This document shows positions 22,234-32,666 of a stretch of 51,578 nucleotides of DNA, one piece after another. Position 1 is the first letter of the stretch. Every line of letters starts with the position of its first letter. Under the pieces are notes generated by a model that was not told the DNA's origin, ran no database searches, and was given only the letters and a program-made list of their open reading frames with translations. Made by a program: the position numbers and the translations under genes. The stretch comes from a virus, in the IMG/VR virus record IMGVR_UViG_3300034066_001869, positions 1-51,578 of that record, one strand, 5' to 3'.

Positions 22234-23809
22234 AGAAATGGAAGGGAATATTTCTTCCCTTTCACCTTCAGACAAACAAGAACTTCTTAGGCTTAAATGC
22301 CGAACAGACTTCTTAACATATGCCCGATTTATAACATCAGAAGTTCCTATTGCTGGAAAGTTTCAACCATTCCATGTCCATGAGGTAATCGGTAACTTTC
22401 TACAAAAGATTGGAGACGGAGACAAGGATTATAAGCAAAGTGCTATCTCCCTACCTCCGAGAACAGGGAAGTCTTTGCTTATCTCCAAGGTTTTTCCATC
22501 ATGGCAAATGGGTCGGAGCCCCACTGCCCAATTCATCATGAGCTCTTATGCGCTCCAACTCACCAACGAAAACTCTAGGGCAGTGATTGAGTACATCTCC
22601 CATGAGAGTTTTGCATGGCTCTTTCCTGAATGCGAGGTAGATAGAGATAAATCTAATCTAAGCGCCATCCGAAACAACAATGGTGGTCTGATTAAGATGG
22701 CATCGGCTGGGGGTAACGTTACCGGATTTGGTTTTGGCGTAATTGATGACAGTGAACTCCCTGGAGTTGGGATTCTAGATGACCTTCTCGCTGATGGTAA
22801 CTCACCCACGGTCATGGAGAGTACATTTGCTTGGACCCAGGCTCAGTTCTTAACCCGAGGTCTTCCTAACCATGGAATCATTTCCATGGGAACCCGCTTT
22901 CATGTAGACGATGTGATTGGTAGATTGCTTAAGGCTGACCCCGAAGGCTGGAAGGAGCTTAATGTACCTGCTCTATGCACAGATGAAGAGAACGATGTTC
23001 TCGGGAGAAGATTGGGTGAGTCTCATTGGCCTCAGTTTTTCCCTGTGGAGAACCTTGAGGCGATTAAGAAATCAATCGGCGATAGAGATTTTAATTCCTT
23101 ATACCAAGGCAGACCAGCTGGTGAGCAGGGTGCAATCTTTAAAGAGCATTGGTTTGGGTATCATTCAAAGAATAAGAGTAAATATTCCTACATCTATGCC
23201 ACTATCGACACGGCCTATAAGGCCGATAGGATGAATGACTATACTGCAATTTGTATCTGGGGATATGACAAACGTGAAAGTAAACTTCATCTAATCCACT
23301 ATATCCTCGATCGAATGGAGTTCCCAGATCTTGAAAAGATCTTTCCCCAACTTGTTAAAACTTGGAAACTAAGATGTGTATATATTGAGGGTAGAGCTCA
23401 AGGAGTCCCTTTGATTCAAACTCTAAAGAGAACCATTAATATCTCGATTAAAGAATTAGTACCTAATAAAGACAAGGTACTTAGGGCAAACGCAATTGCC
23501 CCACTTGTAGAGGATGGGATCGTCTCTCTTTACGAAAACCTACCTTCATTGGCGGAAAGAACAGCGGAATTAACCTCTTTCCCATTCATCAAAAACGACG
23601 ACTTTGTAGACGCTTTTGTATACGGGGTGACCGTTTATCGAGATGAGATTATGGGTGGTAGAACTGTCCATGGAGGCGATAGAAAGCAATTACCGCGCCT
23701 AGTCCATGACCCATTCTACCGAGGTGGATCTAGAAGGCTTTCTAGTGAAGTGGGTAAAGTCAATACTACAATGGGGAGTAGCAAAGGATCCGCTACAAAA
23801 TATCTTTAA
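22193..23809 (+). CDS. terL: Terminase large subunit
   Basis: 538 residues from the ATG at 22193, which overlaps the hub gene by 41 bases; an ATG at 22238 (residue 16), five bases past the hub stop, is an alternative. ATPase domain: Walker A PPRTGKS (88-94), Walker B GVGILDD (191-197) and coupling motif SMGTRFH (231-237). Nuclease domain of RNase-H type: ATIDTAYK with Asp339, MNDYTAICIWG with Asp349, and DDFVDAFVYG with Asp473. It packs DNA into the procapsid and cuts the concatemer. The nuclease looks like the type found with psiM2-like and P22-like terminases rather than T4 gp17, by eye. No small subunit or portal gene is adjacent in the window. Confidence 0.95.
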   Translation: MNKVEAAKERQIVKEMEGNISSLSPSDKQELLRLKCRTDFLTYARFITSEVPIAGKFQPFHVHEVIGNFLQKIGDGDKDYKQSAISLPPRTGKSLLISKVFPSWQMGRSPTAQFIMSSYALQLTNENSRAVIEYISHESFAWLFPECEVDRDKSNLSAIRNNNGGLIKMASAGGNVTGFGFGVIDDSELPGVGILDDLLADGNSPTVMESTFAWTQAQFLTRGLPNHGIISMGTRFHVDDVIGRLLKADPEGWKELNVPALCTDEENDVLGRRLGESHWPQFFPVENLEAIKKSIGDRDFNSLYQGRPAGEQGAIFKEHWFGYHSKNKSKYSYIYATIDTAYKADRMNDYTAICIWGYDKRESKLHLIHYILDRMEFPDLEKIFPQLVKTWKLRCVYIEGRAQGVPLIQTLKRTINISIKELVPNKDKVLRANAIAPLVEDGIVSLYENLPSLAERTAELTSFPFIKNDDFVDAFVYGVTVYRDEIMGGRTVHGGDRKQLPRLVHDPFYRGGSRRLSSEVGKVNTTMGSSKGSATKYL

Positions 23810-30731: not shown

Positions 30732-31808
30732 ATGCCCGCCACACCAGAACCTCCTTTTCATCGTTTCGGGGTCAGATTTACGTCTGACTCTACTCATGAT
30801 AAAAGTTATCTTCAAGAACTTTTAGATGAGGATGCAAACTCAATGTACAGAGGTGAGTTATTCATTAATGAATCTCTAGACCATATATACTATTCTGATA
30901 GTACTGGAGTTGTACGAAGATTAGGAGAACGTTCTATTCCAGCATATATTCTACCCGCCGCCACATCTAACATCCGTGGTGGAGTGAAGATTGGAACAGG
31001 GATAAATGTTACAGCTGATGGAACTATTAGTGTCTCAGGTGGTGGTGGAAATGCAAACACCGGAGATATTACATTTACCGACAATTATATTATTGGCACT
31101 GGTACTATAGGCGGAGGTTTTGGACTATTCTTTGCCCCCGGCCCAGATTTTATAGACCCCGATAACATAACCACCAACGGAACCCAATACGTCAGACTCC
31201 GTGCCGGGGATGATGCATCTCATATACATTTCGACACTGCCGATAGCAGTGCTTATGACTGGTACTTTGGAGACGATTCAAAATACGTAATGTTATCCAA
31301 GGAAGGTTCTGTAAGAATCCGAGCCGGTGGTAATTATGAAGATAAGTGGGTATTTAACTCTAGTGGGGTATTAAAACTCGCTGGGGGAAGTACTAATGAT
31401 GGCACCGGCCCTGGAACCTACCTAAGCTCCAAGGGTACATTAGCGAGGACTAACCAAGAAACGCAGATCACAATTTTCACTGCGAGTCAGGTATGGATGT
31501 CGACCGTAAAACTTCTCATACAGGCGGAGAGCACAGTAACTAATGGTGGGAATAATGGTTGGGATACACAGGCAACGGAATTATTAATTGTTAAGTCTGT
31601 AAAAGGACCATCTGTGCATTCCGTTGTTGTCTCTAACATAACCACAGGTGGAGTGGATAATGACGTCTTTATATCAAATTACTTTGTGTCTCTAGTAGAT
31701 GATAGAATTACTGTAAATGCGGAACCTATTGACGGGAGTTTAATCAATGGGTCTGACACAGGTGTTTACTACTCTGTCTCAGTGATAGAGATGTATAGTA
31801 ATGACTAG
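30732..31808 (+). CDS. Fibre-type structural protein
   Basis: 358 residues. The N-terminus has RGELFINESLDHIYYSDSTG, a GEL-x-IN attachment motif like that of the 183-residue protein at 8927-9478. Residues about 71-105 (ILPAATSN, GGVKIGTGINVTADGTISV) repeat the fibre motif seen twice in the 909-residue protein. The centre is Gly-rich, with YVRLRAGDDASHIHFDTAD resembling fibre knob regions. It ends in a beta domain. It is followed by a strong terminator at 31874-31911. It is probably an attached fibre or decoration protein, expressed by itself. Confidence 0.75.
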   Translation: MPATPEPPFHRFGVRFTSDSTHDKSYLQELLDEDANSMYRGELFINESLDHIYYSDSTGVVRRLGERSIPAYILPAATSNIRGGVKIGTGINVTADGTISVSGGGGNANTGDITFTDNYIIGTGTIGGGFGLFFAPGPDFIDPDNITTNGTQYVRLRAGDDASHIHFDTADSSAYDWYFGDDSKYVMLSKEGSVRIRAGGNYEDKWVFNSSGVLKLAGGSTNDGTGPGTYLSSKGTLARTNQETQITIFTASQVWMSTVKLLIQAESTVTNGGNNGWDTQATELLIVKSVKGPSVHSVVVSNITTGGVDNDVFISNYFVSLVDDRITVNAEPIDGSLINGSDTGVYYSVSVIEMYSND

Positions 31809-31815
31809 TTAGATG

Positions 31816-31823
31816 GTTTAAAG
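31816..31823 (+). promoter_or_regulatory. GTTTAAAG motif before the phoH leader
   Basis: An exact motif just after the fibre stop (31808) and 114 bases before phoH. If transcription began about 8-10 bases downstream, as for T4-type late promoters, the RNA would open with the left arm of the GATACGAA/TTCGTATC stem. Confidence 0.45.
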
Positions 31824-31933
31824 ATTGTCAGGATACGAAGACATTCTATGTCCCCTAAGACATAAAGATCACGAGACTCAATGGAGATATTTATCTCCTT
31901 GGGTCTTTTTTCGTATCAGAAGATTTACAATCT
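31822..31933 (+). other. Nested inverted-repeat structure, candidate structured RNA leader of phoH
   Basis: The gap 31809-31937 has no gene but is almost fully paired. The outer stem is AGATTGT (31822-31828) with ACAATCT (31927-31933), and the next is GATACGAA (31832-31839) with TTCGTATC (31910-31917). Inside are GACAT-TCT-ATGTC (31840-31852), or alternatively TATGTC/GACATA (31847-31852 with 31859-31864), and the long terminator hairpin at 31874-31906. This gives a closed multi-branched shape. The right outer arm ends four bases before the phoH ATG. It could be a regulatory leader, a processed small RNA, or a terminator with extended arms. Confidence 0.5.
31874..31911 (+). terminator. Strong intrinsic terminator
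   Basis: AGACTCAA and TTGGGTCT pair over eight positions (one G-T), then after one unpaired T GGAGAT and ATCTCC pair around an ATTT loop, and a run of six Ts follows. That is a stem of about 14 pairs with a U-tract, the best terminator in the window. It ends the 30732-31808 transcript and also lies inside the phoH leader. Confidence 0.8.
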
Positions 31934-31937
31934 CCTC

Positions 31938-32666
31938 ATGGCAAGAAAATCCTCTCGACGTCAAAGAATCACCGAAGGTGAAATGATCCAGGCCTCTAAT
32001 CCTAAATTTGAAGATCATAAGCCTTTATTGCCTATGAATCCTTCGCAGGTTGATGCAATGAGATACCTTAAGACAAAAACTCTCACCATCCTCACCGGAC
32101 CACCAGGCACAGCAAAGACATTACTTTCGATCCATGCTGCATGCGAAAAACTTCAAAAACGTGAGATCGAGAAGATTTATTACGTAAAACCCATTGTATC
32201 AACTCCAGGCGAGCAAGGTCTCGGCTTCCTTCCAGGTAATCTTGAAGAGAAGATCGCACCTCATATCATGCCGATTCGCGACTCCTTAGCAGTATTTATG
32301 CAAAAGGGTAAAGCCGACTATCTTATTGAGAAAAAGATTATTGAGTTTTTACCTATTGAGCATCTTCGTGGACGGTCCTTACATCGTTGCATGATCATTG
32401 CCGACGAGATGCAAAACGCCACTACCCATTCCGTAATGACAATCCTCACCCGACTTGGTGATAATTCGTCTATCGCTTTGCTTGGTGACGTAGTTCAACG
32501 TGACCTTGCTAACCGCTATGGCCATGATGGACTTTCAGACGCCCTCCGCAGACTTGGTTCTAATCAATCTGTTGGCCATGTTAACTTTGGCTATAATGAG
32601 ATTGTTCGTTCTGACTTCGTCAAGTCTGTCATCCGCGCGTACTCTGATCTATATTCCCCGACTTGA
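31938..32666 (+). CDS. phoH: PhoH-like P-loop ATPase
   Basis: 242 residues from the ATG at 31938 (MARKSSRRQR). An in-frame ATG at 31881 would start inside the terminator hairpin and add an unlikely hydrophobic stretch, so I reject it. Walker A is LTGPPGTAKTLLS (GPPGTAKT at 54-61), Walker B CMIIADEMQNAT (DEMQN at 156-160), with the family's YYVKPIVSTPGEQGLGFLPG (81-100) between them and a C-terminal GDVVQRDL sensor-like motif (183-190). PhoH proteins are widespread in marine phages, especially those of cyanobacteria; proposed roles include RNA metabolism and phosphate stress, none settled. There is no Shine-Dalgarno sequence, and the structured leader just before it may control access to the start. 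Confidence 0.93.
   Translation: MARKSSRRQRITEGEMIQASNPKFEDHKPLLPMNPSQVDAMRYLKTKTLTILTGPPGTAKTLLSIHAACEKLQKREIEKIYYVKPIVSTPGEQGLGFLPGNLEEKIAPHIMPIRDSLAVFMQKGKADYLIEKKIIEFLPIEHLRGRSLHRCMIIADEMQNATTHSVMTILTRLGDNSSIALLGDVVQRDLANRYGHDGLSDALRRLGSNQSVGHVNFGYNEIVRSDFVKSVIRAYSDLYSPT

Follow-up and report, generated by a model that had tools for sequence, protein, structure and literature searches.

A candidate attenuator-like leader RNA ahead of phoH in S-TIM5-like phages

Introduction

Why would a phage keep a transcription terminator between phoH and the only recognisable promoter motif ahead of it? The question is raised by a viral DNA of 51,578 nucleotides (IMG/VR record IMGVR_UViG_3300034066_001869), the whole of which is here called the window. 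The gene phoH, described as a core gene of T4-like cyanophages with an unclear role (PMC3037559), occupies positions 31938–32666 of the plus strand and encodes a protein of 242 aa (PF02562). We take the ATG at 31938 as its start and the listed open reading frame from 31881 as an in-frame extension. The upstream gene has the same direction and ends at 31808, 97 nt ahead of the T-run of the terminator. The window looks like DNA of an S-TIM5-like (Aurunvirus-like) cyanophage. The matches of the phoH locus among named phages in DNA comparison were cyanophages S-TIM5, S-TIM54, S-TIM61 and S-TIM66, with 70–71% identity covering part of phoH only, and Aurunvirus is the assignment of the three S-TIM phage records examined.

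Results

The leader in the window folds around a terminator

Transcription presumably starts at about 31829–31831, a position that we take by analogy with the spacing of T4 late promoters. The putative leader thus placed (31829–31937, plus strand) is about 109 nt long and has a stability z-score of −4.4. A first-pass annotation of the sequence had described it as structured and as containing a strong terminator with a T-run, and both descriptions agree with the folds. The segment 31815–31950 folds with −38.5 kcal/mol (z −3.55), and only one of 200 shuffled sequences reached an equally low energy. The minimum-energy fold from 31829 contains a 10-bp closing stem (31832–31841 with 31908–31917), an inner hairpin (31847–31852 with 31859–31864) and the terminator hairpin (31873–31907), which stacks directly on the closing stem. 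The intrinsic terminator as a whole spans 31873–31911 of the plus strand, with arms 31873–31888 and 31893–31907, a hairpin energy of −18.4 kcal/mol and the T-run at 31906–31911. The repeat GGAGATA/TATCTCC is present within a longer hairpin. An automated terminator scan did not list the phoH terminator of the window, though the folds show it, probably because of a bulge at T31882.

Stability was computed for 33 of the 41 leaders described below. Without the terminator, the 5′ domain had a z-score of −2 or lower in only 6 of the 33, and much of the fold signal therefore belongs to the terminator. The z-score of the whole leader L022 was 0.1.

Motif, terminator and phoH keep their order in relatives

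Leaders were collected by PhoH searches of IMG/VR and from three S-TIM phages. The set of 61 records, window included, was reduced by 5 distant records and 15 identical leaders to 41; the S-TIM5 leader is represented by the identical leader of S-TIM66. The distant records (L031, L086, L087, L096 and L097; PhoH identity 35–45%) served as outgroup controls. The leaders fall into a window-like subgroup G1 (11 leaders and L016), an S-TIM-like subgroup G2 (8), a third subgroup G3 (20) and the odd leader L076, which gives 41 leaders, 40 of them distinct. PhoH identity across the subgroups is about 62–68%, and the leaders of the three subgroups no longer align with each other. Within each subgroup the sequence of the 5′ core is conserved.

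A promoter-like motif stands 101–143 nt ahead of the phoH ATG in all 41 leaders (40 distinct). It contains TTTAAAG in G1, G2 and L076, TTTAAGG in L058, and TTGAAAG/GGTGAAAG in G3. An intrinsic terminator lies between the motif and the gene in 40 of the 41 leaders by our count and in 36 by a strict rule. In the 40 leaders, which do not include L076, the hairpin energy is −12 to −24 kcal/mol and the hairpin ends 0–2 nt ahead of the T-run. The strict rule fails in L002, L013, L025 and L054, which have a 2-nt gap, and in L027, the T-run of which is broken; the hairpin is visible in all five. L076 passes the strict rule only by means of a poor hairpin elsewhere and was hence excluded from the 40. 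Directly 3′ of the T-run there is a short element that differs by subgroup, being CGTATC-like, GCTATATGGAG-like or GTANCTA-like; for the G3 element, no support was obtained for pairing to the 5′ end.

Outside the clade, the same scan of 150 nt found the motif or the terminator ahead of none of 12 phoH genes, which came from the five distant IMG/VR relatives (with an ATA codon as the anchor in L031), five Kyanoviridae and two others. In the five Kyanoviridae phoH begins 1–52 nt after the upstream gene. Because the loci had been fetched by means of phoH, IMG/VR was also scanned with the leader sequence only, as a control for this bias. The scan found 22 places, 16 with the G1 core and 6 with the G3 core, and in 21 of them phoH follows on the same strand, 93–124 nt downstream. 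The remaining place (L283) is cut at the edge of the piece and belongs to the same contig as L027, which carries phoH. Three of the contigs were new and the other 19 had already been found via phoH.

The combination was unique to phoH in four records searched for hairpins of −12 kcal/mol or lower that stand ahead of a gene start and have the motif within the preceding 160 nt. The phoH hairpins have −18.4 kcal/mol in the window, −21.6 in S-TIM5, −18.4 in G001 and −22.0 in G007. One further hairpin, at S-TIM5 138639, lies inside the gene downstream of its motif. A laxer rule adds two weaker hairpins in G001, at 126918 (−11.1 kcal/mol) and at 202 of the minus strand (−11.6 kcal/mol); the other G001 sites that it flags are either within genes or not followed by a gene start. 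The hairpin at 202 lies 91 nt past its motif at the contig end, where no gene was seen, and may be a second leader of this kind that was cut off.

The motif is a candidate late promoter

The motif in the window, GTTTAAAG at 31816–31823 of the plus strand, had been proposed to stand where transcription would begin, and its genome-wide distribution is consistent with that proposal. It occurs 8 times in the window, with 2.73 occurrences expected. Its counts were compared with those of a reversed control in nine G1/G2-type records: 34, 29, 24, 9, 8, 14 and 16 in G001–G005, G011 and G012 (control 7, 2, 3, 1, 1, 0 and 1), and 36 and 38 in S-TIM5 and S-TIM54 (W01 and W02; control 8 and 6). In five G3-type records (G006–G010) the variant GKTGAAAGC occurs 14, 39, 25, 26 and 35 times (control 3, 1, 0, 1 and 2). 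The start of an open reading frame of at least 50 codons follows 19–62 nt past the motif at 4 of 8 sites in the window, 25 of 36 in S-TIM5, 24 of 34 in G001 (covered for 156.5 of 159.3 kb) and 27 of 39 in G007. Among random positions the corresponding shares are 6%, 8%, 8% and 11%.

Based on these counts, we read the motif as the putative late promoter of this phage lineage, with two candidate dialects, GTTTAAAG and G(T/G)TGAAAGC, divided by phage subgroup. Both are unlike the T4-type TATAAAT. The work on the phoH leader thus yields a candidate late-promoter signal for the lineage. Sites named in the window are 30025, 30696, 31816, 32670 and 51070. A further one, at 1471–1478 of the minus strand and 112 nt ahead of the gene 434–1366 (phrog_25892, function unknown), shares bases with the stop of the preceding frame, and the scan found no terminator between this motif and the gene. 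Pairs of motifs on opposite strands stand close back-to-back in G001 (54888–54908), S-TIM5 (57041–57061) and G008 (22804–22821), as would fit divergent late genes.

A consensus search found no sigma-70-like promoter in 31700–32000 of the window, and a second promoter after the terminator was rejected. The sequence TACAAT at 31926–31931, after the terminator, resembles a −10 box; by eye, it is missing from most relatives.

A closing stem covaries in the window-like phages

The first-pass annotation had noticed that pairing continues past the T-run, and compensatory changes in close relatives bear this out. The stem is a perfect 8-nt inverted repeat (31832–31839 with 31910–31917) that extends to 10 bp, with the 5′ arm at 31832–31841 and the 3′ arm at 31908–31917 of the plus strand; the 3′ arm shares four T with the end of the T-run. 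The covariance alignment comprised 11 of the 12 window-like leaders, window included and L016 left out, and its figures refer to the 10-bp closing stem together with 6 bp of the terminator foot. In this alignment 98.9% of cells pair, compared with 38–61% in slid registers. Double-sided changes occur at three pairs, a number reached by 6 of 500 shuffles, and the covariation score was reached by none of 500. The measure of further pair types was not unusual in the same leaders (188 of 500 shuffles reach it), and two of the 11 have an A–C mismatch. The pair types at three positions of the closing stem are AU/GC/GU, UA/CG and CG/UG/UA.

Pairing was also evaluated by swapping arms between phages, for 40 of the 41 leaders (L076 left out) and with identical pairs collapsed. 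The p values, which include those of two batches of 15 and 4 tests, are uncorrected, and the sequences are related, so they are to be taken as guides. With L016, in which a stem of unrelated letters occupies the same place, native closing arms pair with −11.8 kcal/mol and swapped ones with −8.4 (p=0.0002, 11 distinct pairs); without L016 the values are −11.9 and −9.4 kcal/mol (p=0.00035, 10 distinct pairs). The test was negative in G2 (p=0.48) and G3 (p=0.22). The closing stem was therefore ruled out as a feature of all subgroups and is not a shared core. Only RNA that reads through the terminator can form it, and this links the stem to the phoH mRNA.

Other pairings and RNA family searches

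Folding and covariation across relatives, proposed as a check of the nested repeats, separated them into conserved and chance parts. Apart from the terminator and the closing stem, the inner hairpin B formed by UAUGUC (31847–31852) and GACAUA (31859–31864) was upheld (plus strand, swap p=0.0035, 11 leaders). Only the 8-bp member of the two outer stems that had been described as perfect was supported over the 11 leaders. The 7-bp stem (31822–31828 with 31927–31933, plus strand) has a swap p of 0.45, pairs perfectly in just two leaders (window and L004) and was judged a chance pairing. Its 5′ arm overlaps the promoter motif, and the test gave no sign of a conserved strand lying 5′ of the late start and pairing with the start region. 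The first-pass annotation had also noted alternative, mutually exclusive pairings of GACAT/ATGTC/GACAT; of these, hairpin A (GACAT 31840–31844 with ATGTC 31848–31852) has a swap p of 0.96 and was rejected as a conserved part. Local pairing of the 5′ arm GGAURYG with AUGUCC is consistent among the leaders but unsupported (p=0.18). No antiterminator was detected: the upstream leader and the terminator hairpin were uncoupled in the three groups (p=0.73, 0.27 and 0.88). The term attenuator-like thus suits the order of motif, terminator and gene, but comparison gave no backing to the usual antiterminator that would compete for an arm of the terminator.

In G2 the terminator stem continues past the T-run (AGCA/UGCU), and one of the pairs is GC in six leaders, AU in one and GU in one. 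Coupling was weak for a long-range stem ahead of the terminator in G3, with p about 0.02 before any correction for the 15 tests. RNAalifold predicted no consensus pairs in the 20-sequence G3 alignment, which MAFFT aligned poorly.

Rfam gave no match at gathering in the window and, at E≤1, none in eight related loci; in 31780–31960 there were just two weak matches, far below gathering. A model of the window group, R1, found one strong match in each of five window-like records and weak ones (E 0.1–0.9) in G004, G007 and S-TIM5. On 15 loci of other subgroups, L016 and L076 it gave just two weak matches (E 1 and 1.8), the latter being the L016 leader with 12.5 bits, and no ligand-binding core conserved across lineages was found in this search. 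A loose DNA pattern yielded at least 120 stretches; among 80 of the loci listed, R1 had six weak matches and a single strong one, on a contig already known.

Short frames, as candidates for a leader peptide, were also inspected by eye, and the idea was set aside. In the window group ATGTCC opens frames of very unequal lengths. Some leaders of the third subgroup contain a frame of five codons. In L014, L019, L021, L024, L027 and L030 such a frame, beginning with ATG or TTG (for instance ATG AGG ACA AGC CTT TGA in L019), can be made out in the conserved core just past the predicted start; it may reflect structure rather than a peptide. The S-TIM-like L064 and L066 have no ATG at the matching place.

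Discussion

The order of the parts, its conservation, the covariation within the window subgroup and the uniqueness to phoH in four records are properties of the sequences themselves; promoter activity, termination and regulation are what we infer for them. We lean slightly towards the interpretation that phoH, as a late phage gene, is preceded by a leader RNA that acts in cis and resembles an attenuator. Transcription would begin a few bases past the late-promoter-like motif, near 31829, and RNA polymerase would reach the intrinsic terminator about 80 nt downstream, where part of the transcripts would stop as a short RNA of about 80 nt. The order of the parts suggests that the remaining transcripts read through into phoH. 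In window-like phages the read-through mRNA would form a three-way junction of the closing stem, the inner hairpin and the terminator hairpin, in which the closing stem joins the 5′ end of the mRNA to part of the T-run and the sequence just past it, and so also ties up this end. Because a conserved terminator separates the gene from the sole recognisable promoter motif, phoH would be made by read-through, barring an unseen later start. The lack of a supported antiterminator leads us to propose a fixed or protein-tuned attenuator. The leader may fix phoH at a low dose, or a protein may raise read-through, candidates being an accessory protein of the late RNA polymerase, an antitermination protein or PhoH itself.

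The main alternative, possible but rather unlikely, is that the motif and the terminator frame a self-contained gene for a small RNA under a late promoter of its own; the product, about 80 nt long, would act in trans while phoH is expressed by leakage. The conserved 5′ core of each subgroup and the single strong R1 match per window-like record would suit such a gene. The lack of good R1 matches in other subgroups speaks against it, as does the position of the leader sequence next to phoH in every place but the one cut off. The closing arm lies beyond the terminator, so that a terminated small RNA would lack it, yet it covaries in window-like phages. It is transcribed only on read-through; selection on it would therefore act on the phoH mRNA, which favours a role in cis over a free small RNA. 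We consider it improbable that the leader is simply a stabilising 5′ structure, with a T-run that is incidental. Many folds in each of the three subgroups have bases near the predicted start engaged in the closing stem, a 5′ hairpin or a long-range stem, depending on the subgroup; such pairing could guard the first mRNA nucleotides against decay that depends on the 5′ end. The weak coupling of the G3 stem fits this idea, which leaves the terminator kept in 40 of the 41 leaders unexplained.

A terminator ahead of a gene could also serve the gene upstream, which here has the same direction and ends 97 nt ahead of the T-run. That it serves this gene alone, with phoH transcribed from another start such as one at the −10-like TACAAT, is nevertheless improbable: the only motif stands ahead of the terminator in all 41 leaders, and the window leader has no full sigma-70-like site. 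A riboswitch or a classical two-state attenuator with an antiterminator would account for a terminator within a leader that has alternative local pairings; it is very improbable, as antiterminator coupling, a core shared over the subgroups and an Rfam match at gathering are all lacking. Finally, there is a small chance that the fold depends on whether termination took place: in the short, terminated RNA the 5′ arm would pair with the nearby AUGUCC, and in the long read-through mRNA it would pair with the sequence after the T-run. The leader would then record termination, and PhoH, a putative RNA-related ATPase, would bind or remodel it and set its own dose.

The leader is kept across phages whose PhoH differs at about one third of positions, which suggests that phoH dosage late in infection is controlled. 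The cultured system of S-TIM5 on Synechococcus allows this control to be tested.

A literature search, with most subscription papers outside its scope, did not find a structured phoH leader. Among known systems, manA, wcaG, PhotoRC-II and glutamine riboswitch RNAs are described as candidate cis-regulatory structured RNAs of cyanophages, several in potential 5′ UTRs (PMC2864571, PMC9964418). As far as these accounts describe them, they belong to other genes, whereas the phoH leader has no Rfam match and is built round a terminator. In T4 gene e, a late promoter is described as located around the 5′ strand of the leader structure (PMC3014915); the 7-bp outer stem of the window would act alike, but it is not conserved. 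The same source describes mRNA operators of T4 genes 32 and 43, structured leaders of phage nucleic-acid proteins. Autoregulation by PhoH is conceivable by comparison, although those operators are, in that description, translational. Bacterial transcription attenuators have the same order of promoter, leader, intrinsic terminator and gene. The phoH leader differs from them in that it has no supported antiterminator and stands behind a phage late-type motif, and in window-like phages it adds a stem that closes around the terminator past the T-run.
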